In this document: piece after piece, positions 43,562-63,320 of the stretch
How positions within the stretch are numbered: the stretch's first letter is position 1
How the letters are laid out: the number at the start of each line of letters is the position of its first letter
Source: Catonella massiliensis
GTDB lineage: Bacteria > Bacillota > Clostridia > Lachnospirales > Lachnospiraceae
Assembly: GCF_016651435.1 (NCBI RefSeq)
Contig: NZ_JAEPRJ010000001.1
Span: 3,055,401-3,119,400, forward strand
Direction of reading: 5' to 3'
DNA length: 64,000 bases
Notes under the pieces: model-generated
The model's input: only the letters and a program-made list of their open reading frames with translations
Told to the model about the DNA's origin: nothing
Database searches by the model: none
Position numbers and translations under genes: made by a program

Positions 43562-45574
43562 ATGGAAAATGAATTCTTGTATGGCTGTGCGTACTATCCT
43601 GAATATATGCCTTATGAGAGGATAGACGAAGATTTTGCCCTTATGCAAAAGGCTGGGATGAATGTAGTAAGAATAGCGGAATCTACCTGGAGTACCCTAG
43701 AGCCAAAAGAGGGAGAGTATGATTTTTACCATATTGATGAAGTTCTAAAAAGAGCTGGAAAGTATGGTCTCAAGGTAATAATTGGCACTCCTACATATGC
43801 TATACCATCTTGGCTTGCAAAGCTTGATAAAAACGTACTTGTCCATACCAAAAACGGCGATGTAAAATATGGTAAAAGGCAGATATTCAACCTTTTATCA
43901 GATACATATATATTCTACGGTGGTAGAATAATCAGAAAACTCTTAGAGCATACAGCGAATCATCCACAGGTTATAGGATTTCAGATAGACAATGAAACCA
44001 AGCATTATGACAACTTCGGAGCAGGGATTCAGGAAGCGTTTATACGTCTGCTTAAAAGCAGATATACAGACATAGAGGAGTTTAACAAAGATTTTGGACT
44101 TGCTTACTGGAGTAACAGTATCCACTCGTGGGAGGATTTTCCTGACATATCGGGGACAATAAATGCAAGCCTTGCCTGTGAATTTGAAGAATTTCAGAGA
44201 GATATGGCAGTTAACTTCCTTAAAATGCAGGCTGAGATTGTAAATGAATATAAAAAACCGGAGCAGTTTATTACACACAACTTTGACTTTGAATGGAGAA
44301 AGTTTGGAGCTGATATAGCTCAGGATGGCTATTCTTATGGGATACAGGATGGTATCCATCACCTAAGAGCTTCTGATGCCCTTACCCACGTGGGAACTGA
44401 CATCTATCATCCTACTGGATTTCAGCTGACAGGTGCAGAGATAGCGTTTTGCGGAGATGAAATAAGAAGTCTTAAAAATGACAACTACTTTGTGCTTGAA
44501 TGCCAGTCACAGGCATTTAAGTACTGGTGCCCATTCCCAAAACAGCTCAGGCTTCACGCTTTCAGCCATATTGCATCTGGTGCAGATGGAGTAATGTACT
44601 GGAACTGGCACTCCATCCATCAAAGCTTTGAGACTTACTGGAAGGGCATTTTAAGCCATGACTTAAAGCCATCCAGAATATACAATGAGATTTCCGAGAT
44701 TGGCAATGAAATCAAGACACTTACAAAGGAAAAGCTTTGCATAAAGAAGAAAAACAGGATTGCCCTTTTGGTTGATACCCTGTCTTTAAGTGCGCTTAAG
44801 TGGTTTCCTATAGATAAAAAACTTAGTTATAATGATGTTGTAAGATATATGTATGACAGCCTCTATGAGGAAAACCTCGAATGTGACATCGTTTTCTCCG
44901 AGTACGCAAATCCTAATGAGTATGAAGCCATCATCTGCCCTGCACTTTACTGTGTATCTAAAGAGCTTACTAAAAAGCTTGACAAGTTTGTGAAAAACGG
45001 TGGTATCCTCATAGGGAGCTTTCGCTCATTTGTAGCAGACAGAAGAGTTAGCGTATATACTAAAACCCTTCCTGCGGGGCTTACTGACTGCTTTGGAGTG
45101 CATTATGATGAATTTACTCATACTCTTAATATGGGAGCAGGCGGAAAAGAAGTAAAGTATGTGGCAGAGCTTGTGACCGCCGATACAGCTAAAGAAATCC
45201 ATCCTTATGAGCATATTTACTGGAGTAATTATTCTGCCGTAACCTGCAATGAGTACGGAAGCGGAAAGGCTTATTATATAGCTTCATATCTGGATAAGGC
45301 TGTGCTAAAGGAGGTCTTAAGAGAGGCGTTAAAGGAAGTGTATAAGGAGCAAAATCTCCCTGTACAGACCGCTTTTCCGGTGATAACCAGAAGAGGTGTA
45401 AACGAACTAAACGAGGAGCTAAACTATGTATTTAATTACTCCTGTAAGCCTGTTGAAGTAGAGATATGCGTGGAGGCTGAGAAGGGCTATACAGATGCCA
45501 TTACCGGAAAAAGCTATGTAAAAGGGGATAAGCTAAGGCTAGAAGACTGGGGAGTGGCAGTGCTTGTGGGGTAG
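43562..45574 (+). CDS. Glycoside hydrolase family 42 beta-galactosidase
   Basis: 670 aa; start 43562 follows AAGGAG. FLYGCAYYPEYMPYERIDED is the GH42 opening. The acid/base Glu is in QIDNETKH (near 145) and the nucleophile in YFVLECQSQAFKYW (near 315). A trimerisation-like domain and a short beta domain end the protein. No signal peptide: cleaves imported beta-galactosides. It is the last hydrolase of the locus; its stop abuts a toxin-antitoxin remnant. Confidence 0.92.
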   Translation: MENEFLYGCAYYPEYMPYERIDEDFALMQKAGMNVVRIAESTWSTLEPKEGEYDFYHIDEVLKRAGKYGLKVIIGTPTYAIPSWLAKLDKNVLVHTKNGDVKYGKRQIFNLLSDTYIFYGGRIIRKLLEHTANHPQVIGFQIDNETKHYDNFGAGIQEAFIRLLKSRYTDIEEFNKDFGLAYWSNSIHSWEDFPDISGTINASLACEFEEFQRDMAVNFLKMQAEIVNEYKKPEQFITHNFDFEWRKFGADIAQDGYSYGIQDGIHHLRASDALTHVGTDIYHPTGFQLTGAEIAFCGDEIRSLKNDNYFVLECQSQAFKYWCPFPKQLRLHAFSHIASGADGVMYWNWHSIHQSFETYWKGILSHDLKPSRIYNEISEIGNEIKTLTKEKLCIKKKNRIALLVDTLSLSALKWFPIDKKLSYNDVVRYMYDSLYEENLECDIVFSEYANPNEYEAIICPALYCVSKELTKKLDKFVKNGGILIGSFRSFVADRRVSVYTKTLPAGLTDCFGVHYDEFTHTLNMGAGGKEVKYVAELVTADTAKEIHPYEHIYWSNYSAVTCNEYGSGKAYYIASYLDKAVLKEVLREALKEVYKEQNLPVQTAFPVITRRGVNELNEELNYVFNYSCKPVEVEICVEAEKGYTDAITGKSYVKGDKLRLEDWGVAVLVG

Positions 45575-45578
45575 AATT

Positions 45579-45641
45579 ATGCCACAAATAATACCAATTA
45601 AAGACCTGAAAAATACTTCTGAAATCTCTGATATGTATTAA
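45579..45641 (+). pseudogene. Truncated antitoxin remnant (20 codons)
   Basis: MPQIIPIKDLKNTSEISDMY-stop, nearly identical over 18 residues to the frame starting at 47314. Begins 5 bases after the GH42 stop. It is a broken copy of the start of a Phd-type antitoxin. Confidence 0.8.
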
Positions 45642-45646
45642 AAATA

Positions 45647-45675
45647 TTTACATTGAACATAAACTGTGCTATAAT
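45647..45675 (+). promoter_or_regulatory. Promoter of the higBA-like module, extended -10
   Basis: TTTACA (45647-45652), 17 bases, perfect TATAAT (45670-45675) preceded by TGC. It begins exactly where similarity of the antitoxin remnant ends. Confidence 0.75.
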
Positions 45676-45723
45676 TTTTATTACCAAAATAGTAATGAAA
45701 TTAAAGGGGGACAAAAATTAAAA

Positions 45724-46077
45724 TTGGGGATGAAGATACTGTATAAGAATGAAACTGCAAAGAAACAGTTTTGTTCTGAGTATAAGAAAAAATGGCGATA
45801 TCCTGAGCAGGTAAAAAAGAAACTTGAGTCTACAGAAAACTTTATATTAAATGCAGAATCTTTATTGGATATTGCTAATTATCCTCCTTTTCATTTTGAA
45901 CACTTAAAAGGTGACAGAAAAGATGAATGGAGCATACGTTTAGGGAATACAGGATATAGAGTTACAATGATTCCTTGTGATGTCAGTGGAAACGAAATCA
46001 CAGAAGGAGATATTTTAGCACAGTGTAAAATGATTAAAATTGTAAAGGTGACGGAGGTGTCAAACCATTATGAGTAA
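45724..46077 (+). CDS. HigB/RelE-type toxin
   Basis: 117 aa (115 if started at ATG 45730). The TTG at 45724 is better placed after AGGGGG (45705-45710), so the start is uncertain. The C-terminal half HFEHLKGDRKDEWSIRLGNTGYRVTMIPC matches HigB-like ribosome-dependent nucleases (conserved Lys/Arg and Tyr). Overlaps the antitoxin gene by 8 bases, toxin first, as is usual for HigBA. Confidence 0.82.
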   Translation: MGMKILYKNETAKKQFCSEYKKKWRYPEQVKKKLESTENFILNAESLLDIANYPPFHFEHLKGDRKDEWSIRLGNTGYRVTMIPCDVSGNEITEGDILAQCKMIKIVKVTEVSNHYE

Positions 46078-47176
46078 TGTAAATGAATACAAAGATATAG
46101 TGGCCTTTCACCCTGGGTATTATATTGCAGATGTTATTGAAGACATGGAAATTAGTCAGGCTGAGTTTGCAACAAGAATGGGAACAACGGCAAAGACATT
46201 AAGCCAGTTGATAAATGGGCAGGCTAATATATCTAATGACTTAGCGAAGAAGCTTTCTGTAATGCTTGGCACCAGTCTGGATGTTTGGCAGAACTTACAG
46301 AATACTTATGATCAGAAGCTTATTGAGATACAACTGGCTAAGGATATTGATGCACAGGCAGAACTTGTGAAAGAGATAGATTATAAGTATTTTATTGATG
46401 TAGTTGGTTTGCCAACGACAAGAAGTATCAAGGATAAAGTGGCAAACTTATGTAAGTTTTTCAGAGTTGCAGATTTAAGAATTATGTTGAAAGAGGATTT
46501 TTTAGTGAACTTTAGAACAAGTTCATCTTGCAATAAAATGAAACACATTATTAATTCCAGAGCTTGGATTCAAACAGCTATGAATCTTTCAAAAAGCATT
46601 GAGACTAAGCCTTATAATGCTGCAAAATTAAAAGGATATTTACCGGAGCTTAGAGGGATGACTCTAAAGGAACCTGAAGAGTTCTTGCCAAGAATGAATG
46701 AAATTTTTGCCGAATGTGGCATCGCATTTGTTCTATTACCGCATTTGAAGAATTCAGGAGTGAATGGAGCAGTTAAGTGGGTGACAGAGGATAGAGTAGT
46801 GCTTGCGATGAATAATAGAGGACTTAATGCAGATAAGTTTTGGTTTTCATTATTTCATGAAATAAAGCATGTGCTGCAGCAGAAAATTAAAATGGTATTT
46901 ATTAGTACTACAGTTGAGGAGATGATGGATATTAATAATAATCTTGAAATAGAAGCAGATAAATTTGCAACAAATTATCTGATTTCTCCTGCGGACTATA
47001 AAAGGTTTGCTCCATCAAAATATACTTCTGATGATGAAATAGTTGAATTTGCAAATACAATTGGAATTCACCCAGGCATTGTAGCCGGAAGATTACAGCA
47101 CGAAGGAATAATCGCCCAGAACAGATGCTCAAAACTAAAAGAAAAGTATGTGATTGAAATAAAACATACTGCTTAA
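46070..47176 (+). CDS. HigA-like antitoxin fused to an ImmA/IrrE (M78) metallopeptidase
   Basis: 368 aa. The N-terminal ~90 residues form an XRE-type helix-turn-helix (ISQAEFATRMGTTAKTLSQLINGQANIS), the HigA DNA-binding part. The C-terminal ~150 residues carry HEIKH in LFHEIKHVLQQK plus EIEADKFATNYL, the zinc site of ImmA/IrrE peptidases. Such fusions occur in regulators that cleave repressors in mobile elements. Paired with the toxin upstream, it may act as both antitoxin and protease. AT-rich and flanked by broken antitoxin copies. Confidence 0.88.
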   Translation: MSNVNEYKDIVAFHPGYYIADVIEDMEISQAEFATRMGTTAKTLSQLINGQANISNDLAKKLSVMLGTSLDVWQNLQNTYDQKLIEIQLAKDIDAQAELVKEIDYKYFIDVVGLPTTRSIKDKVANLCKFFRVADLRIMLKEDFLVNFRTSSSCNKMKHIINSRAWIQTAMNLSKSIETKPYNAAKLKGYLPELRGMTLKEPEEFLPRMNEIFAECGIAFVLLPHLKNSGVNGAVKWVTEDRVVLAMNNRGLNADKFWFSLFHEIKHVLQQKIKMVFISTTVEEMMDINNNLEIEADKFATNYLISPADYKRFAPSKYTSDDEIVEFANTIGIHPGIVAGRLQHEGIIAQNRCSKLKEKYVIEIKHTA

Positions 47177-47313
47177 AGCAAATGCTATATTTTCAAGGTA
47201 ATTACATCGCTCTTTTTAGATTCATTTTATCTAAATTAAGTGCTTTGGAGATGTTTTAACAATAAAAAACAGATGGTTTTTTACACTACCAATACCTACA
47301 CGGAGATAGAATT

Positions 47314-47499
47314 ATGCCGCAAATTATATCAATTAAAGATCTGAAAAACACTTCTGAAATCTCTGATACGTTTCGAAAGACGATGAAACAGTTATCTATG
47401 TACAGAGATATAGAAATATCAGAACAACAGATAGAAAAAGGCCAGATAAAGGATGCAAGGCAAGCATTAGGGGAGCTGAGGACAAAGTATGGGCTATAA
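47314..47499 (+). pseudogene. Internally deleted Phd-type antitoxin
   Basis: 61 residues: the start PQIISIKDLKNTSEISDTF and the end EKGQIKDARQALGELRTKYGL fit full-length clostridial Phd-family antitoxins. The middle, which normally holds the ITKNGYGDLVVMS-like strands, is missing (about 25 residues). The frame is still open, so a short protein may be made, but it is unlikely to fold normally. Confidence 0.7.
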
Positions 47500-50734: not shown

Positions 50735-50752
50735 TTGTGCACATGATAAAAG

Positions 50753-50785
50753 GAGCTGTTTAATTGATAACAGCTCTTTTTCTTT
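50753..50785 (+). terminator. Rho-independent terminator, target site of intron 1
   Basis: GAGCTGTT and AACAGCTC enclose an 8-base loop, followed by TTTTTCTTT. The group II intron begins 3 bases later. Confidence 0.9.
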
Positions 50786-50787
50786 GT

Positions 50788-52692
50788 GTGCGTCTAGTAG
50801 CGCACGTTTCTAACGGGTACAGTCCCAAATCCGGTCGATAGTGGGAAGGATGCGCCGAAAGCAAGGGTGTAGAGGGTGCTCTCGAATCTGAAGGAAGCTG
50901 GATATGAGGAAGATACTAACTCATGGGCAAATCTCTGGTCTGACGAACAGAAATCTCATATGAGGTTATGCATGAGGATAAGACTGCATTACAAGCCAAA
51001 GTCCAATAACTACACGCAATCTGACATGATAAATGAGGCAGATAGATGGAGAGGAAGAAACGTGTGGTACCTAGGGAGGTCTGTGTGATAAGCCTTGAAA
51101 GAGGTAACCATTGCTGGGAGCAATGCTGAACACACAGAAGTGGACAGAGGTCATAGTAGTCGAGAGACAAAGGACCGAATCAATAGGAGTCTCAAGTATA
51201 ACTGAGAAAGGAGGAATGACTAGTCATGGCAGAAAACACTGAAAACAGTGGCTGTTTGCAGAGAGATAGTGCGGAACATGAAGGGTATGCAAAAGCGCGC
51301 AGGTCATTTAATCTGATATGGAAAGAAAGAGACAGTGCACAGCCGAAGCTCTTGGAAGCGATACTGTATAAGGATAACTTTAACAGAGCGTATAAGAGGG
51401 TTAAGGCAAACAAGGGAGCATCTGGAGTTGATGGAATGACTATCGAAGAGGCGCTTCCATACCTTCAGGAACATCAACAAGAGTTAACGGCACGTATTTA
51501 TCGTGGAAAGTATACTCCGTCTCCAGTAAGACGAGTTGAGATTCCCAAACTAGATGGTGGTGTGCGGAAGCTTGGCATACCAACAGTGATAGACCGTACA
51601 CTTCAACAGGCGATAACACAGCAGTTAGTGCCAATCTATGAGCCACTTTTTGTAGACGGCAGTTACGGCTACCGCCCAAACAGAGACGCAAAAGGAGCAA
51701 TACTAAAGGTTAAGGAGTACGCCGAACAGGGCTACACATATGCAGTAGTTCTAGACCTATCGAAATATTTCGATACAATCAACCACGAGATTCTTATCAA
51801 CCTTCTGAGGAAAAACGTAAAAGATGAACGTGTGGTGCAACTTATCAAGAGGTATCTGAAAAGTGGCGTAATGGAAAATGGAGTGGTTATCGAAACAGAG
51901 GAAGGGTCGCCACAAGGAGGGAATCTATCCCCTTTGCTTGCGAACATCTACCTCAATGAATTCGACTGGGAGTTCTTGAAAAGAGGTGTCCCATGCATAA
52001 GATATGCAGATGACATAGTGCTTCTTGCGAAAAGTAGGAAGGCATCAGAGAGACTCTTAGAGAGCAGTACGAGGTATCTCGAGGAGAAGCTGAAACTTAC
52101 AGTGAACAGAGAGAAAAGCCGTACTGTCAGCGTATTTGCAATCCGAAATTTTAAATTCCTTGGCTTTGCATTGGGAAGGAACAAAAGTGGCATATATGTC
52201 AGAGTTCATGCAAAGTCATGGGAGAAGTTTAAGTCGAAACTGAAAGAGCTTTCTTCCCGTAAGCACTGTCAGTCAATCAAGCCGAGCCTAGAAAGAATTA
52301 AGGTATATGCAAGAGGGTGGCTTAACTACTATGGAATAGCAAGTATGAAGAGCAACATGAGTGATGTAAATGGATGGCTCTATCACAGAATACGTATGTG
52401 TATATGGAAACAATGGAAACGTGTGCGAACCAGATACAGAAATCTCAGGGTAATGGGCGTTCCTAAAGACCTAGCATGGAAAGCAGCAAACAGCAGACGT
52501 GGCTATTGGTTTACAACACATACAGTTGCCATAAATATGGCAATGACAAAAGAAAGACTTATAAACAGTGGCTTTTATGATTTAGCCACAGCCTATCAGT
52601 CTGTGCACATCAACTATTGAAAGCGCTGTATACGAGAACCGTACGTACAGTGCTGTGAGAGGACGGCGGTTAGTCACCGCCTCCTACTCGAT
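50788..52692 (+). mobile_element. Group II intron, bacterial class C, complete
   Basis: The RNA starts GTGCG and ends CTACTCGAT; both ends are set by comparison with the second copy (56499-57046), where flanking similarity stops. Domain V is the hairpin beginning AGCGCTGTATACG and ending CGTACAGTGCT near 52622-52655. Domain VI is the following GGCGG/CCGCC hairpin with a bulged A. The reverse transcriptase lies in domain IV. Insertion directly after a Rho-independent terminator and an RT without an endonuclease domain are hallmarks of class C introns. It explains the gene-free stretch 50735-51225. Confidence 0.93.
51226..52620 (+). CDS. ltrA: Group II intron reverse transcriptase/maturase
   Basis: 464 aa. 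RT blocks are clear: KANKGASGVDGMTIEE, GGVRKLGIPTVIDRTLQQAI, YGYRPNRDAKGAI, LDLSKYFDTINHEIL, SPQGGNLSPLLANIYLNEFD and the catalytic RYADDIVLLAKS. The thumb/maturase domain X covers about 310-430 (ARGWLNYYG). The protein ends shortly after AMTKERLINSGFYDLATAY, with no H-N-H endonuclease, as in class C introns that prime on the lagging strand. GAGG precedes the ATG. Confidence 0.95.
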   Translation: MAENTENSGCLQRDSAEHEGYAKARRSFNLIWKERDSAQPKLLEAILYKDNFNRAYKRVKANKGASGVDGMTIEEALPYLQEHQQELTARIYRGKYTPSPVRRVEIPKLDGGVRKLGIPTVIDRTLQQAITQQLVPIYEPLFVDGSYGYRPNRDAKGAILKVKEYAEQGYTYAVVLDLSKYFDTINHEILINLLRKNVKDERVVQLIKRYLKSGVMENGVVIETEEGSPQGGNLSPLLANIYLNEFDWEFLKRGVPCIRYADDIVLLAKSRKASERLLESSTRYLEEKLKLTVNREKSRTVSVFAIRNFKFLGFALGRNKSGIYVRVHAKSWEKFKSKLKELSSRKHCQSIKPSLERIKVYARGWLNYYGIASMKSNMSDVNGWLYHRIRMCIWKQWKRVRTRYRNLRVMGVPKDLAWKAANSRRGYWFTTHTVAINMAMTKERLINSGFYDLATAYQSVHINY

Positions 52693-52721
52693 AATTATCT
52701 AATAAATATTTATGAGGATAT

Positions 52722-52752
52722 GTTACTTATAATCCGTTGGCTTATAAGTAAC
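52722..52752. promoter_or_regulatory. C-box operator of the restriction-modification system
   Basis: Perfect 11-bp inverted repeat GTTACTTATAA / TTATAAGTAAC with a 9-base centre TCCGTTGGC. Arrangement and the central CCGT resemble known C-protein boxes. It begins 30 bases after the intron end. Confidence 0.8.
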
Positions 52753-52765
52753 TAAGATTTATAAT
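52737..52765 (+). promoter_or_regulatory. Promoter of the C gene, overlapping the C-box
   Basis: TTGGCT (52737-52742), 17 bases, perfect TATAAT (52760-52765). The -35 lies between the operator half-sites, which fits activation and repression by the C protein. Confidence 0.65.
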
Positions 52766-52786
52766 CTTATGCAGAGGAGGATTGCA

Positions 52787-52993
52787 ATGATTACAGATAA
52801 AATTGGATTAAGAGTAAAGGAGCTAAGGACTGAACTTGGACTAAGCCAGGAGAAGTTAGCCCTAAAAGCAGAAATTGATAGGACATATTTAGCAGGAGTT
52901 GAACAAGGGAAAAGGAATCCTTCTGTTAAAAGTTTAGAAAAAATAATTTATGCTCTTGGTGTAAAATTTAGTGAGTTTTTTAAAGATATGTAA
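52787..52993 (+). CDS. Controller (C) protein, XRE-type helix-turn-helix
   Basis: 68 aa from ATG 52787; AGGAGG (52775-52780) rules out the upstream ATG at 52769. The whole protein is one XRE domain: IGLRVKELRTELGLSQEKLA, AEIDRTYLAGVEQGKRNPSV, LEKIIYALGVKFSEFF. Size and position in front of an endonuclease gene are typical for C proteins, which delay endonuclease synthesis until methylation is complete. The palindrome upstream is its likely site. Confidence 0.9.
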   Translation: MITDKIGLRVKELRTELGLSQEKLALKAEIDRTYLAGVEQGKRNPSVKSLEKIIYALGVKFSEFFKDM

Positions 52994-52997
52994 TGTT

Positions 52998-53010
52998 GAC
53001 TATAAGTAAC
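52998..53010 (+). promoter_or_regulatory. C-box half-site before the endonuclease gene
   Basis: GACTATAAGTAAC repeats the right arm of the C-box (TATAAGTAAC, 10 of 10 bases apart from the first). A TTGACT-17-TATTAT promoter-like pair (52996-53024) overlaps it, but the ribosome site would lie upstream of its start point, so this promoter is doubtful. Confidence 0.5.
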
Positions 53011-53036
53011 AATTGATGTATTATGGAGGTTGTAGA

Positions 53037-53942
53037 ATGCCAAGCAAAAATTATGGTTTATTAGAAGAACATATTATTAATACTTTTGAAAATGACAGAT
53101 TGTTCCAGTATCATGAAAAACTATGTGAAGTAATATATGCTGGAAAACCAAGACCAAAGGGTGGAGGAGAGTGTAAAACAGATGTTTTTGTTAAAGCAAG
53201 AGACAAAAATACTGGTGAAGAGTTTGAAATAAAAATTTCTGTAAAAAATGAGAATAAGGAGTTTATGGGAAATAAGCTGAAAAAAGAGGATGTTGAAGCT
53301 TATTTGGGTCCAGACTGGGAGAATATTCTTATTAATGCAAGCACTTCACTAAGAAGTTCTTTTGAGACAAGAGTACTTATGTATGCATCGGGACATTATC
53401 CAATAAAGCAAAACTCAGTTACAGTTGGGTGGAAGTTGGAAATTGCAGACAGACCAAGAGCCTTATCTGTACCGATTCCGTTGAGTGATAGAGAAATTAG
53501 AGACTATGTTTATAAAGGAACTAATTTAACCAAGGATAAGAAGGATTCAATAGTGAATGGACAGGAAGTCTCAAATTCAGGTGTAGCAGACTACTTACTG
53601 GTTACTTGTATTGAAAAAATTCATGCTTCAAATGATGTGATTAACCAAATGGAATTAATTGATAATGCAAATATAGGTGATACATATTTTATTTTTACAG
53701 CTAATAACTATAGAACGGATGAAGAAAGTGCAGATGGACAAAGAGCTTTAGCGGTTAGGATTGAATGGGAAGTGATTGATGGAAAAATGACTCCATCTTT
53801 TCATTATGATAATCCGTTAAAGTATACTGGAGAAAAAGATATGGCACCACTTGTTAGAAGAGCATTAGCTTATCTTGGAAAAAGAAATATATCTGATATA
53901 AGACCAGGAATTGATGTTGATGAAGATTTATTAAAAGAATAA
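53037..53942 (+). CDS. Type II restriction endonuclease (PD-(D/E)XK type)
   Basis: 301 aa from ATG 53037, preceded by GGAGG (the in-frame start at 53013 includes that site). GGECKTDVFVKARDKN with Asp49 followed by FEIKISVK (Glu64-x-Lys66) gives the PD-(D/E)XK metal site. It lies between the C protein and a 5-methylcytosine methylase, so it should cut the same unmethylated site, inferred to be GGCC. The protein family itself is not recognised. Confidence 0.8.
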   Translation: MPSKNYGLLEEHIINTFENDRLFQYHEKLCEVIYAGKPRPKGGGECKTDVFVKARDKNTGEEFEIKISVKNENKEFMGNKLKKEDVEAYLGPDWENILINASTSLRSSFETRVLMYASGHYPIKQNSVTVGWKLEIADRPRALSVPIPLSDREIRDYVYKGTNLTKDKKDSIVNGQEVSNSGVADYLLVTCIEKIHASNDVINQMELIDNANIGDTYFIFTANNYRTDEESADGQRALAVRIEWEVIDGKMTPSFHYDNPLKYTGEKDMAPLVRRALAYLGKRNISDIRPGIDVDEDLLKE

Positions 53943-53962
53943 ATTTAGGAGATTATTGATAT

Positions 53963-55045
53963 ATGAATGTTATTAGTTTGTTTTCCGGATGTGGTGGGCT
54001 TGATCTTGGATTTGAGCGTGCTGAATTTAACATACCGGTAGCTAATGAGTATGATAAAACTATATGGGAAACATTTAAGGTAAATCACCCTAAAACCCAT
54101 CTTATAGAAGGAGATGTAAGACAAATTACAAAGGAAGATATTTTACCATATTTGTCAGAAGAGGTGGATGGAATCATTGGAGGGCCTCCTTGTCAATCTT
54201 GGTCAGAAGCTGGAGCTTTGAAAGGGATTGAGGATGCGAGAGGACAATTATTCTTTGATTATATTCGTATTCTTAAGGAATTTCAGCCTAAGTTTTTTTT
54301 AGCAGAAAATGTAAGCGGAATGCTTGCGAACAGGCATTCAGAAGCTGTTAAAAATATATTAAAGATGTTTGAAGAGGCTGGTTATGATGTGTCCTTGACA
54401 TTAGTTAATGCCAAAGACTATGGTGTAGCAGAAGAAAGAAAAAGAGTTTTTTACATTGGATTTAGGAAAGATTTGAAAATAAATTTTAGATTTCCTGCTG
54501 GTTCAACAAAAGATGATGATAAAAAAATCACTTTAAGGGATACTATATGGGATTTGCAGGAAACAGCAGTGCCATCTGCAAAAAAGAATCGTCGTAATCC
54601 TAATGCAATAAATAACAACGAATACTTTACAGGAGCCTATTCACCAATATTTATGAGTCGCAATAGAGTAAAAGGATGGGATGAACAAGCCTTTACTGTA
54701 CAAGCATCAGGCAGGCAATGCCAGCTACACCCTCAGGCACCTAAAATGGTTAAGCATGGACTTAATGATTGCAGGTTTGTCACAGGAAAAGAAGAACTTT
54801 ACAGGAGAATGACAATTAGAGAAGTGGCAAGAGTACAGGGATTCCCGGATGATTTTAAATTTATATATGAAGACACTAACAATGCATATAAAATGATTGG
54901 AAATGCAGTTCCAGTCAATCTTGCATATGAAATTGCAACAGCTATTAAGCTATACCTCAATGGAGAAGGAGATAAAGTTATTGCGATTGATGATATGAAT
55001 GTTACAAGGAATAGAAAAAATAGTAAAATGATAACCAAAGACTAA
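53963..55045 (+). CDS. DNA (cytosine-5)-methyltransferase, M.HaeIII-like
   Basis: 360 aa. Motif I is [13 protein letters not shown], motif [16 protein letters not shown] with catalytic Cys77, motif VI ENV, motif VIII near [10 protein letters not shown], motifs [20 protein letters not shown] and [16 protein letters not shown]. The target-recognition region [10 protein letters not shown] and [17 protein letters not shown] closely recalls M.HaeIII, which methylates GGCC. Specificity is inferred from memory, not tested. Starts 20 bases after the endonuclease gene. Confidence 0.95.
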
Positions 55046-55318
55046 CCAAGAGATAACCGCATGCTAACCAAGATATAATTGTAGGACTTTGAAAAGTGTT
55101 ATATCATTATGGTGGAGAAAGAATAAAAAAGCAAGGCTGGTCTTTGATGATGTTGTTAAGGACATAATGAAAGATTCTAGTGTAGAAAGTGTATATTGAT
55201 GAAATGGATATAGCTTATTATATAAGGATTGATTTGCTAGGAGTTGTTTATACCTATAAATTAGAAATTTGTATACCTTACAAGCATACTATTTATTAAG
55301 GAAGGCGGTTATATACTA

Positions 55319-56185
55319 ATGGATAAAATAGAAAAGGATAAACTCACGATACCGATTTATCTTAATACCAAAATTGTGTTTGATATGTTAGCAACAATTG
55401 AGGATGGTTTTACGGAGGTTAAGAATGTTCAAACATCAAAAAACAAAAATCGTGAAGACGGTATAGAGGCAAATGTCGGTACTAATAATCTGTTTGCCTT
55501 TTTGAATGTAGGAATTCGAGGAAATCATAAAGGTAATTCAAGTAATGGAGAGACTGTTGTTGAAGAAAGAACACATACTCCGGTTTCTTTGTTTCAGCAG
55601 TTAAAGGGTCAACTGGACAATGAGAAGCTAATTAATCGCGATATTACAAAATTGTGTATTGGTGACTTTGTTGAAGTGCAAGGAATTCTAAAAAATAATC
55701 CAGTTATTGAGATGTTGTCTGGCTTGAAGGAATTTATTGATTTGGCGAACTTATTTACAGACAATAAGCCTAAGAGCAATCAGGTTAAAAAAGACAAGTT
55801 TATGGCAGATAACAGATTCAATTCACAAGTGGATGCTTTGATTAAAGGTCTGCAAGCAGATGGAAAGAAAGATATAATTTGCGTAGCGGATAAGATGAGT
55901 ATTGTTCTTCCGACAGATGAGAATTATTTTCTAAACAACAATATGAGTGAAGTTACTGATGGAAACTATAAGATATTAGGTAAAGTTATTCAAATTTCTA
56001 TGGAAGATGGTGAGATAAGTCTGCTTAGAAATACTGTTTTCTCTAAGCTTCAATTAGATAAAATGAAAGAATTTAAGGATTTATTTTCGGATCCATCGTT
56101 AAACCAGTTTTTTGGTGATGGTGGAATTAAGACCGTCATAAGTGCACCGGTTATTATGATTATCCCAATTGCTATTTATATTTAA
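55319..56185 (+). CDS. DUF6414-like protein of unknown function
   Basis: 288 aa. IPIYLNTKIVFDMLATIEDGFTEV, then FAFLNVGIRG, then a hydrophobic end ISAPVIMIIPIAIYI. This pattern fits what I recall of DUF6414, proteins seen near defence genes and mobile elements. There is no catalytic motif I can name. The ribosome site is AAGGAGG-like (AAGGAAGG before the ATG). It lies between the restriction-modification genes and the intron remnant, inside the same foreign-looking segment. The 273 bases upstream (55046-55318) hold no clear gene, only a 37-codon frame without a ribosome site. Confidence 0.65.
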   Translation: MDKIEKDKLTIPIYLNTKIVFDMLATIEDGFTEVKNVQTSKNKNREDGIEANVGTNNLFAFLNVGIRGNHKGNSSNGETVVEERTHTPVSLFQQLKGQLDNEKLINRDITKLCIGDFVEVQGILKNNPVIEMLSGLKEFIDLANLFTDNKPKSNQVKKDKFMADNRFNSQVDALIKGLQADGKKDIICVADKMSIVLPTDENYFLNNNMSEVTDGNYKILGKVIQISMEDGEISLLRNTVFSKLQLDKMKEFKDLFSDPSLNQFFGDGGIKTVISAPVIMIIPIAIYI

Positions 56186-56279
56186 CTTAACCATATTACA
56201 AAGAGCATAAGTGTTTGAGATATTGATTAATAAATCATTATTTGAAAAGTGATAAACACAGAACTTTATACAAGCTCTG

Positions 56280-56494
56280 TAGGTAAAGGCTTAATCAAGT
56301 TTAAGTCCAAAGCCCTTTTAGCAGGTCAAGGGCGCAGCCATTGCCCAGTTAGTGGCGTTTCGCCACTAAGTACTGGGTATTACTTGGCGAGAACGCAAGC
56401 TATTTGCTCTGCAGAATCGAGAATAATCAGCTTTATGAAATATAAAAATTAAATAGTATTAACTTAAAGGAATCGAGAAATCGGTTCCTTTTTT
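56280..56494 (+). ncRNA. Structured RNA-like element ending in a terminator
   Basis: Nested helices: TTAGTGGCG/CGCCACTAA around TTT (56349-56369), enclosed by CCCAG/CTGGG (56344-56348 and 56373-56377), enclosed by GCG...CCA / TGGCG...CGC (56332-56340 and 56385-56396). A terminator follows 70 bases later. The frame 56249-56452 crosses it but looks non-coding (no ribosome site, arginine/serine mix). Could be a small RNA or an inserted palindromic element; no known class is claimed. Confidence 0.4.
56466..56494 (+). terminator. Rho-independent terminator, target site of intron 2
   Basis: AAAGGAATCGA and TCGGTTCCTTT (one wobble) around a GAAA loop, followed by TTT. The second intron begins 5 bases later. 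Confidence 0.88.
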
Positions 56495-56498
56495 AATG

Positions 56499-57046
56499 GT
56501 GCGCCTAGCGGCGCACGTTTCTAACGGGTTAAAGTCCCGAATCCGCCCGGTAGTGGGAAGGATATAGCCGAAAGCAAGGGTGTCGAGGGCGACCTCGAAT
56601 CTGAAGGAAGCTGGATATGAGGAAGATACTAATTCATGGGCAAATCTCTGGTCTGACGAACAGAAATCTCATATGAGGTTATGCATGAGGATAAGACTGC
56701 ATAACAAGCCAAAGTCCGATAACTACACGGAATCATGCATGATAGATGAGGCAGATAGATGGAGAGGAAGAAACGTGTGCGAACTAGATACAGAAATCTT
56801 AGGGGAATGGGTGTTCCTAAAGACCTGGCATGGAAAGCGGCAAACAGCAGACGTGGCTATTGGTTTACAACACATACGGTTGCCATAAATATGGCAATGA
56901 CAAAAGAAAGACTGATAAACAGTGGCTTTTATGATTTAGCCACAGCCTATCAGTCTGTGCACGTCAACTATTGAAAGCGCTGTATACGAGAACCGTACGT
57001 ACAGTGCTGTGAGAGGACGGCGGTTAGTCATCGCCTCCTACCCGAT
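56499..57046 (+). mobile_element. Group II intron remnant, class C, reverse transcriptase deleted
   Basis: Same 5' end (GTGCGCC) and 3' end (CTACCCGAT) as the intron at 50788, but the interior jumps from the early RNA domains straight to the last 65 codons of the RT (ending TGA 56972-56974). Both break points in the full copy carry GAAACGTGTG (51057-51066 and 52416-52425), and the remnant keeps one (56770-56779), so 1359 bp were lost between 10-bp repeats. Domains V and VI are intact and could still act as a ribozyme if an RT is supplied. The 5' stem has two extra base pairs compared with the full copy. Confidence 0.93.
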
Positions 57047-57144
57047 TTATAAAAACGTAATATAAAAGTTATAAAATATTTAAATAAAAAGTAAACTATA
57101 TATGATATAGTATTATCGTCAATATTAGAAATTTGGAGGTAACG

Positions 57145-58380
57145 ATGAAAAAAATCTATTTTAAGTTGTTGTTGTCGATGATGATACTCCTTAGCCTGTC
57201 GTTTTTGCCAACATTTTCTGAGAGTGTTAGTGCAGATACAGGTGGGACTGTAGTTGCTGCAAGAGGCAATGTAGTTGCGTATGGCAGACTTGAAAAGGTA
57301 AACACAAGAAAGCAGCTTAAGAAAGCGGTTGCAAGACGTGTGATTAACCTTGACAGTAGAATCAGACTATTAGTAAACAGAAAGGCAATGAAGTACTCCT
57401 TCAACGAGTATAAGAAATTGCTTTATGAGATATCAGACAATCAGAAATACAACGAAATAATGGAACATACCTCATACTGGGATATCGACAGTTATAATTA
57501 CAATAAAAACTACTATGTATGGGAATTTAGACCTAGGTATACCATCAATAAGGCTCAGGCTAAGAAAATTCTTGCCAAGGTGAAGCCTATCATCAAGACC
57601 AGAAAACAGCTTATCAAGCAGGTAGCAAAGCATGTTAAGAATCTTGACAATGAATACACCTTAAACATTAGCAGTAAGCTTGTAAAGATAGAGAATAAAG
57701 CATCATATACCAAGTTCTGGGATAAGTTATATGCTAATCCTACTATCAGTGATATTAATCATTACAGAATTAACTTTGATGATAAGTATAAGAAATACAA
57801 GAATTATTATAAGTGGAGAATCCGCGTAAAGTACAATATCTCCAAGAAGGAAATCAAAGCCTTGGACAAGTTCGTAAATAACTGGGTAGCAAATAATATA
57901 AACTCAGGGATGACACAGGAACAGAAGGTAAGAGCTATCAATGATTTCATGGTAAGCGAGTACAGATATACCTTCGGCGACAATGTTAAGCCACCTGCTA
58001 AAAATGCGAAAGTATATCCTGACGGAAAGCTTGGCAAATACTCAGTATATACCTGCTTCTCACTGTTATACGGAAAAGGTGGAGTATGTGATGCAAAGGC
58101 GAAGATGTTCTATAGGCTTGCTAAAAAAGCAGGAATAAAGGTGCTTTACATTACAGGTCGTGCAGGAGGAATGCTTCATGCTTGGAACCTGGTAAACATC
58201 GACGGCTACTGGTATCATGTTGATGTTACCTGGAACAGAGGACATTATGAAGGAACCGGAGAGAACGAATACGTTGCAAGGCTTGACTACTACCTTAAGA
58301 GCGATGCAACAATGAGGAAGGATCATAGCTGGAATGCAAAGAACTATCCTGCGGCAAACTATGATTATCCTGTATCGTAG
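57145..58380 (+). CDS. Secreted transglutaminase-like protein A with duplicated N-terminal module
   Basis: 411 aa; start 57145 follows TTGGAGG. Signal peptide about 1-30. A ~90-residue module occurs twice, beginning at about residue 53 (NTRKQLKKAVARRVINLD) and 151 (KTRKQLIKQVAKHVKNLD), each ending in a Tyr-rich strand plus INKAQAKK/ISKKEIK. The transglutaminase-like core follows with Cys315 (GGVCDAKAK), His345 (LHAWNLV) and Asp360 (HVDVTWNRG). No anchor motif, so it is released or bound non-covalently. Likely a wall or matrix protease/cross-linker; the substrate is unknown. A close paralogue follows. Confidence 0.85.
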   Translation: MKKIYFKLLLSMMILLSLSFLPTFSESVSADTGGTVVAARGNVVAYGRLEKVNTRKQLKKAVARRVINLDSRIRLLVNRKAMKYSFNEYKKLLYEISDNQKYNEIMEHTSYWDIDSYNYNKNYYVWEFRPRYTINKAQAKKILAKVKPIIKTRKQLIKQVAKHVKNLDNEYTLNISSKLVKIENKASYTKFWDKLYANPTISDINHYRINFDDKYKKYKNYYKWRIRVKYNISKKEIKALDKFVNNWVANNINSGMTQEQKVRAINDFMVSEYRYTFGDNVKPPAKNAKVYPDGKLGKYSVYTCFSLLYGKGGVCDAKAKMFYRLAKKAGIKVLYITGRAGGMLHAWNLVNIDGYWYHVDVTWNRGHYEGTGENEYVARLDYYLKSDATMRKDHSWNAKNYPAANYDYPVS

Positions 58381-62201: not shown

Positions 62202-63173
62202 ATGCAACCTTTATTTTTAAGGCCTGTATTTAAGGAAATGATATGGGGTGGAACTGCCCTAAGGGATTTATACCACTATGATATACCAAGTGATAAAACG
62301 GGAGAATGTTGGGCGATTAGCGCACATAAGAATGGTGACTGCATAGTAGAAACCAGAGAGAAGTCCGAATATTCAGGAAAGAAGCTTAGTAAGCTGTGGC
62401 AAGATAACAAAGAGCTCTGGGGAAAGTCCGGAAAGGCAGAGGTATTCCCTCTTCTAACCAAGCTGATTTCTGCTGAAACCGACCTTTCCATCCAGGTTCA
62501 TCCTGATGATAACTACGCTAAAGAGCACGAGGGTGGCTCTCTAGGTAAGACAGAGTGCTGGTATGTGGCTGATGCAAAAGAAGGTGCAACCATAGTAATA
62601 GGGCACAACGCTAAGAACAAAGAGGAGCTCCACAAATACATGGATGATAAGAACTTCAGAGGTCTTATCAGAGAAATCCCGGTAAAAAAAGGAGACTTCT
62701 TCTTTATAGAGCCGGGTACTGTACACGCTATAAAGGGAGGCACCGTTATCCTTGAAACGCAGCAAAACAGTGATATAACTTATAGACTGTATGACTATGA
62801 CAGGCTTCAGGACGGCAAGCCTCGTGAGCTCCATATAGACAAGTGCTTTGATGTCATAACCTGTCCATTTGAGGAAAAAGAGCCTGTACATAGGGCTTGC
62901 AAGACTTTAGAGAATGGTTCTGAAGTTAGAAATCTGGTAGTATGTGACCTCTTTGAAGTAAGCTATATCAGGGTTGAAAAAGAGGTAAAACTCACTCAGG
63001 AAACAGACTTCACCTTGGTTAGCGTGCTAGAGGGTGAGGGAGTGATTATAAGTGAAAATGGCGATAAGTATGATATAAAAAAGGGAGAACATTTCATCCT
63101 CCCTTATGGCTTTGGTGCTTATGAACTTAAAGGTAATATGGAGCTTATAATATCTGGCTGCACTAAACGATGA
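62202..63173 (+). CDS. manA: Mannose-6-phosphate isomerase, class I
   Basis: 323 aa. Interconverts mannose-6-phosphate and fructose-6-phosphate. Zinc ligands: Gln and His in SIQVHPDD, Glu in KTECWYV, His in PGTVHAIKGG. LETQQNSDITYRLYDYDR is the family signature. RBS TAGGAG. The last 12 codons form the first unit of a 37-bp tandem repeat that continues past the stop. Confidence 0.94.
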   Translation: MQPLFLRPVFKEMIWGGTALRDLYHYDIPSDKTGECWAISAHKNGDCIVETREKSEYSGKKLSKLWQDNKELWGKSGKAEVFPLLTKLISAETDLSIQVHPDDNYAKEHEGGSLGKTECWYVADAKEGATIVIGHNAKNKEELHKYMDDKNFRGLIREIPVKKGDFFFIEPGTVHAIKGGTVILETQQNSDITYRLYDYDRLQDGKPRELHIDKCFDVITCPFEEKEPVHRACKTLENGSEVRNLVVCDLFEVSYIRVEKEVKLTQETDFTLVSVLEGEGVIISENGDKYDIKKGEHFILPYGFGAYELKGNMELIISGCTKR

Positions 63174-63320
63174 TATGGAGCTCATAATATCTGGCTGCAC
63201 TAAACGATGATATGGAGCTCATAATATCTGGCTGCACTAAACGATGATATGGAGCTCATAATATCTGGCTGCACTAAATGATGATATGAAGCTCATAATA
63301 TCCGGCTTTACTAACGATTA
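63136..63320 (+). repeat. 37-bp tandem repeat, five units, spanning the manA stop
   Basis: Units start at 63136, 63173, 63210, 63247 and 63284. Units 2-4 are nearly identical; unit 5 is shorter by one base and diverged. Unit 1 is the 3' end of manA including its TGA; unit 5 includes the stop codon of the convergent reductase gene. Each unit contains ATATGGAGCTCATAATAT, imperfectly palindromic around GAGCTC. No separate terminator lies between the two genes. Confidence 0.95.

Follow-up and report, generated by a model that had tools for sequence, protein, structure and literature searches.

A restriction-modification cargo and an oriT-like hairpin between two class C group II introns in Catonella massiliensis

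We analysed a 64,000-nt stretch of Catonella massiliensis (NZ_JAEPRJ010000001.1, 3,055,401-3,119,400), which is the terminal 64 kb of a 3.12-Mb contig. This whole stretch is referred to as the window, and window coordinates are used throughout. Two group II introns in the same orientation flank a restriction-modification (R-M) system of controller (C), restriction endonuclease (R) and methyltransferase (M) genes, together with a DUF6414 gene and a block that resembles an origin of transfer (oriT). The order is terminator, intron 1, C, R, M, DUF6414 gene, oriT-like block, terminator, intron 2 and transglutaminase-like gene (Table 1). Comparison genomes (G-numbers) were taken as one genome per species, four congeners included, and the genome of the window itself is coded G000; L-numbers denote comparison loci.

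Table 1. Coordinates of the features at the locus and the evidence for each
Feature	Position	Strand	Evidence
Terminator hairpin behind leucine-rich repeat (LRR) gene, 5' flank of intron 1	50748..50781	+	fold -16.0 kcal/mol, z -5.0 vs shuffles
Intron 1, full-length class C group II	50788..52692	+	RF02001 50870-51066, RF01998 51105-51175, RF00029 52621-52692
Reverse transcriptase/maturase of intron 1, open frame, 464 aa	51226..52620	+	RVT_1, GIIM, TIGR04416 395 bits
Inverted repeat before C gene, probable C-protein operator	52722..52752	+	fold of 52693-52768, z -2.8
C protein (controller)	52769..52993	+	PADLOC Control_protein 1.1e-17; solved controllers 3clc, C.AhdI, C.BclI
R, type II restriction endonuclease, BspRI-like	53037..53942	+	PADLOC REase_II 3.5e-74; 86% relative named bspRI
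M, cytosine-5 methyltransferase, HaeIII-like	53963..55045	+	1dct (M.HaeIII) 440 bits, E 6e-131; PF00145
DUF6414 gene, function unknown	55319..56185	+	PF19952 7e-42
oriT-like block, without relaxase gene behind	56318..56390	+	74-97% identity at 35 other places
Core hairpin of oriT-like block and invariant tail	56344..56383	+	exact pattern match; compensatory changes
Terminator before intron 2	56466..56492	+	fold z -3.7 vs shuffles; 33-nt identity to L059 3803-3835
Intron 2, relic with open reading frame (ORF) deleted	56499..57046	+	deletion joint at 9-nt repeat 56771-56779
Transglutaminase-like gene, right flank	57145..58380	+	PF01841; start is ATG chosen inside ORF 57133-58380

An earlier sequence-only reading of this DNA had named the C, R, M and DUF6414 genes, and their sequence relatives bear those names out. 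R, for which searches started at 53034, one codon before 53037, has no relative among solved structures at E 1. Since M is close to M.HaeIII, a relative of R is named bspRI and C matches solved controllers, the three genes are likely to form a GGCC-type (HaeIII/BspRI-like) type II R-M system. The C, R and M kinds are, by sequence relatives, those of HaeIII/BspRI-type GGCC systems with a controller; what differs here is that the DUF6414 gene and an orphan oriT-like block come after the methyltransferase gene.

Outside its own genome, R has no relative above 38% identity in the 392 genomes searched, and IMG/VR, phages and plasmids gave relatives of 36-41% only. For the DUF6414 protein, relatives in the 331 genomes searched reach at most 32% identity, and nothing useful was found in IMG/VR, phages and plasmids. 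Copies that are 98-99% identical are present in the protein database. A literature search turned up no publication on DUF6414. Relatives of 80-86% identity have methyltransferase genes (L062, L065) or VapE-like genes (L063, L064) no more than a few kb away, and at L063 and L065 a gene identified by eye as GMP synthase-like adjoins the DUF6414 relative or its neighbour genes.

Behind the DUF6414 gene, the sequence-only reading had proposed an RNA-like element. No Rfam family reached its gathering score there, which rules out a known RNA, and a conserved oriT-like hairpin was found instead. The block is also single copy in its own genome and so is no ordinary repeat of that genome. It recurs in other genera, from at least three families of the order, and is carried by two Kurthia plasmids (97% identity over 69 nt) and a Subdoligranulum plasmid record (91%). 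At 33 of the 35 other places, a relaxase gene of one family lies closely behind the block on the same strand. The relaxase aligned from its first residue at 32 of these, with a start 56-158 bp past the block match; at L041 the front of the relaxase is absent, and the alignment begins at 116-119 bp. Of the remaining two, the block at L039 is followed by 105 bases before its contig ends, and at L080 there is no relaxase in the 1.5 kb behind. This count was made with four relaxase queries; L095, L098 and L100, which repeat L043, L081 and L070, were omitted, as were loci that lack the block (L059, L085-L088, L091). Four of the relatives' relaxases match PF01076 (Mob_Pre) at 17.8-23.6 bits, below the cut-off of 25.5, and two do not match it. 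One carrier record in PLSDB is typed MOBV.

The hairpin combines an invariant stem base and tail with a variable upper stem, and two-sided changes are seen in 5 pairs across 21 distinct sequences. These were what remained, after removal of duplicates, of 29 sequences recovered with the window included; the search expression missed 7 of the 35 loci. The consensus energy is -23.0; 200 column shuffles averaged -0.65 and went no lower than -5.3. Homology and position together suggest that the block is probably an origin of transfer. As a structured, covarying element just upstream of a gene on the same strand, it could instead be a regulatory RNA leader of mob with no oriT, a partial alternative that could be combined with others discussed below. 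However, an invariant stem base and tail beside a variable stem would suit a protein-bound nick region, the hairpin is kept in the window without mob, and it has no match to any Rfam family. We therefore consider the leader unlikely. A search of IMG/VR with the oriT pattern gave nothing useful.

The distance from the block to the start of intron 2 is 108 bp, and tblastn with four relaxase queries detected no relaxase in the window. A search of the whole genome with one relaxase also found none, which is weak evidence. The block is most likely an orphan oriT whose relaxase is gone, with intron 2 standing in its place. If so, a hairpin of this sort marks a kind of mobilizable element and can expose cargo that has lost its relaxase. 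No publication on an orphan oriT with restriction systems turned up in the literature search.

Integrative and mobilizable elements (IMEs) of the Tn4451 type carry, in this order, the serine recombinase TnpX, TnpV and the MobV relaxase TnpZ. The block-bearing locus L058 is similar: a large serine recombinase and TnpV (PF14198) are followed by cargo and the block, and then by a relaxase that matches Mob_Pre weakly, a CHC2 primase and a VapE-like gene. L060, which also has the block, is ordered likewise and carries a cytosine methyltransferase as cargo; a neighbour gene there could not be classified. At L059, which matches the window by its terminator and not by the block, a cytosine methyltransferase and an NgoBV-type restriction gene come before the relaxase. 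In the Kurthia plasmid elements, the recombinase is at the opposite end. Unlike Tn4451-type IMEs, the block-bearing relatives also have the CHC2 primase and a helicase-like gene, whereas the window keeps cargo and the oriT-like block only. Tn4451 has been described as having a serine integrase and a MobV relaxase, and a cis-mobilizable element (CIME) as one that has lost integration and transfer genes and kept its cargo with attL and attR (PMC5704250). The segment between the introns resembles a CIME in that cargo would remain after loss of integration and transfer genes, but its edges are introns. Three serine recombinase queries found nothing in the window; the search did not extend to tyrosine integrases or att sites. 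We set aside IME_Rho_tet as the parent family: it has MobC, and the term "primase" is absent from the main text of its description (PMC12904643).

Both introns belong to group II class C and have the edges previously assigned to them, each starting with GTGCG and ending with CGAT. RF02001 matches the two at 110 and 131 bits (Rfam; cut-off 32). RF00029 (domain V-VI) matches intron 1 at 45.1 bits and intron 2 at 38.2 bits, the latter just below the cut-off of 40. The reverse transcriptase of intron 1 scores well above the TIGR04416 cut-off of 300 bits and has RVT_1 and GIIM only in Pfam, with no endonuclease domain, as expected of class C. Thus, intron 1 matches class C introns in ends, target site and domains, and intron 2 in ends and target. 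Intron 2 is a relic of a related intron and no working intron, its RF00029 match being under the cut-off and its reverse transcriptase gene deleted: approximately 1.36 kb is gone between two copies of a 9-nt repeat, of which intron 1 has 2 copies and intron 2 has 1.

Each intron was also expected to lie just behind an intrinsic terminator, and both terminators do fold better than shuffled sequences (Table 1). Most other copies with a visible 5' edge likewise lie behind a terminator (by eye), L006 not clearly so. Work by Robart in 2007 reportedly placed class C group II introns behind terminators; the difference here is that two copies edge what appears to be the cargo of a mobile element.

The sequence-only reading described the introns as a near-identical direct repeat of more than 500 bp. 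The repeat is direct, but it consists of two diverged blocks, 289 nt at 90.7% identity (5') and 277 nt at 96% (3'), in which perfect identity extends over at most 69 and 67 nt, so near-identity over that length was overstated. Runs of 69 and 67 nt are long enough for RecA. Together with the direct orientation, they would fit the proposal that the introns are the ends of a composite element and that the island is now lost or moved as an active unit by recombination between them. We consider this very improbable: the repeat has diverged, no excised or moved form was seen with one genome per species and no reads to examine, and selection would be expected against loss of a type II R-M system. Post-segregational killing has been named for R-M systems (PMC5704250).

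The two introns have different affinities. In its 5' block, intron 2 is closer to copies from other genera (96% identity to those in G213, approximately 95.5% to those in G123) than to intron 1 (90.7%). For the 3' block, the two introns have each other as nearest relative among the copies compared. A one-base length marker also separates them. Intron 1 has the shorter form, as do all 6 other copies in its own genome that cover the position; intron 2 has the longer form, in common with all 15 copies compared from other genera, which represent 13 genomes picked from the best matches. The block identities and this marker rule out recent duplication of a single intron as the origin of the bracket. 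In a tree of the 5' block, intron 1 groups with L006, a relic in its own genome (88/83). Among 28 scored copies, the 3' flank opens with T in 25 and with C in 2, and intron 1 is the only copy followed by A; copies were taken as loci, not from all genomes with matches, and one uncertain 3' end was dropped. Full-length copies of intron 1 occur at 93-94% identity in two other genera. In G213 (L149:1181-8943), two direct intron copies lie approximately 4.1 kb apart around a ZnuA/ABC/ABC-3 zinc-uptake operon.

To the right of the locus, the flank from parA and parB onward is conserved at 79% in the closest congener (G003). The stretch before parA is occupied there by type I restriction genes and a PDC-S02 candidate (L144:7756-17406), and in another congener by RsmG-like and MnmG-like genes (by eye). 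As the genes before parA differ among congeners, this stretch is variable in the genus. None of the four congeners has the site beside parA; in one of them a relative of the right-flank genes, at 66%, was found elsewhere, and nothing more.

Judged by these comparisons, 52693-56498 is best read as the cargo and orphan oriT of a decayed mobilizable element. Intron 2 sits where the relaxase gene begins in relatives, and behind it comes the leader of the transglutaminase gene and no relaxase gene. Intron 1 sits 29 bases before the probable C-protein operator. With cargo before the block and mob after it in relatives, this layout is what would be expected if everything from mob onward had been cut off at intron 2. 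The parent would have been an IME carrying a C-regulated GGCC R-M system and DUF6414 as cargo, plus oriT, so that cargo and hairpin would have arrived together; its relaxase, primase, helicase and recombinase genes would have been lost. On the most likely reading, an incoming intron-bearing molecule recombined with a resident chromosomal copy of the intron, and the cargo and oriT were left between two hybrid junctions, each with one chromosomal and one element side. We give roughly an even chance that 52693-56498 derives as a fragment from an IME with a MobV-like relaxase and was stranded in this way by recombination between intron copies. The sharing of markers and the unique A behind intron 1 favour such recombination, short of proof.

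The density of introns makes independent insertion a serious rival. Here, a decayed IME fragment would have lain in the variable stretch before parA, its mob and recombinase genes lost by ordinary deletions, and two copies of an abundant intron would have landed separately behind terminators, making the bracket a coincidence. Intron matches are found in 144 of 299 genomes of the family, and class C introns insert behind terminators (PMC3522654, PMC4424553). The paired copies in G213 and the 4-9% difference between introns 1 and 2 are also consistent with separate arrivals. However, independent insertion requires a deletion that ended at the 3' edge of intron 2 and removed mob exactly, and the base after intron 1 is unlike that of all 27 other scored copies. 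We rate independent insertion a little short of an even chance. Recombination with hybrid joints accounts for both edges at once, whereas independent insertion needs more events. Therefore, we slightly prefer intron-by-intron recombination, as an explanation of how the cargo arrived and not as a shown route of its loss.

Several observations weigh against the stranding of an IME fragment by intron recombination. The genome has 19 further intron matches at 11 other places (our grouping), so a chance two-intron bracket is not rare. In the free tree of the 5' block, intron 2 falls weakly (82/69) beside intron 1 and L006, and the approximately unbiased (AU) test did not reject a sister relationship of the two introns in that block (p 0.059), so these data lean without deciding. 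The block of L080 shows that a block can stand alone without an intron, and the position of the Kurthia recombinase means that the losses required on the left depend on the type of parent. No element with the C-R-M and DUF6414 set was found among the sequences searched, and no one-intron or empty allele was seen with one genome per species and four congeners. Finally, the terminator before intron 2 shares a 33-nt identity with a terminator upstream of the mob gene of L059, but its 29-nt core recurs in an unrelated phage, on four contigs that are nearly identical to one another. This identity is weak by itself, and we downgraded it from strong evidence. No mob was seen at the three other terminator matches (L085, L088, L091).

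If the cargo was stranded by intron recombination, a 4.35- or 5.7-kb deletion by recombination between the repeats would be expected, and transfer would need a relaxase supplied in trans. Group II introns have been described as targets of ectopic homologous recombination (PMC3522654), and type II R-M systems occur in IMEs (PMC5704250). With both already published, what would be new here is their combination.

Many defence islands are mosaics in which no integrase is evident. Class C introns may more generally act as shared recombination edges, such that defence cargo on intron-bearing mobilizable elements is captured at chromosomal copies, keeps its oriT and can be exchanged again without an integrase of its own. 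We regard this generalization as doubtful. If it were true, introns behind terminators would supply homology for swaps, giving a simple and testable route for the exchange of defence genes.

Intron pieces enclose other genes in the same genome as well. At L151:1894-4264 (G000:C1, 869893-872263), pieces of another intron relic flank an AbiLi/AbiLii-type defence pair (PADLOC 3.9e-93 and 2.1e-27; AAA_21 and RloB in Pfam). A DUF2254 membrane gene (L013 and L008; G000:C1, 1479470-1481516) and a 109-aa ORF of unknown kind (L150:2974-3303) have similar positions.

Elsewhere in the window, a HigB-like gene (PF05015, below cut-off) and a HigA-family gene (45724-47176) lie in 45572-47378, flanked by a 72-nt repeat of 88% identity. 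Tandem 37-bp repeats occupy 63122-63314, at and past the end of ORF 62202-63173.

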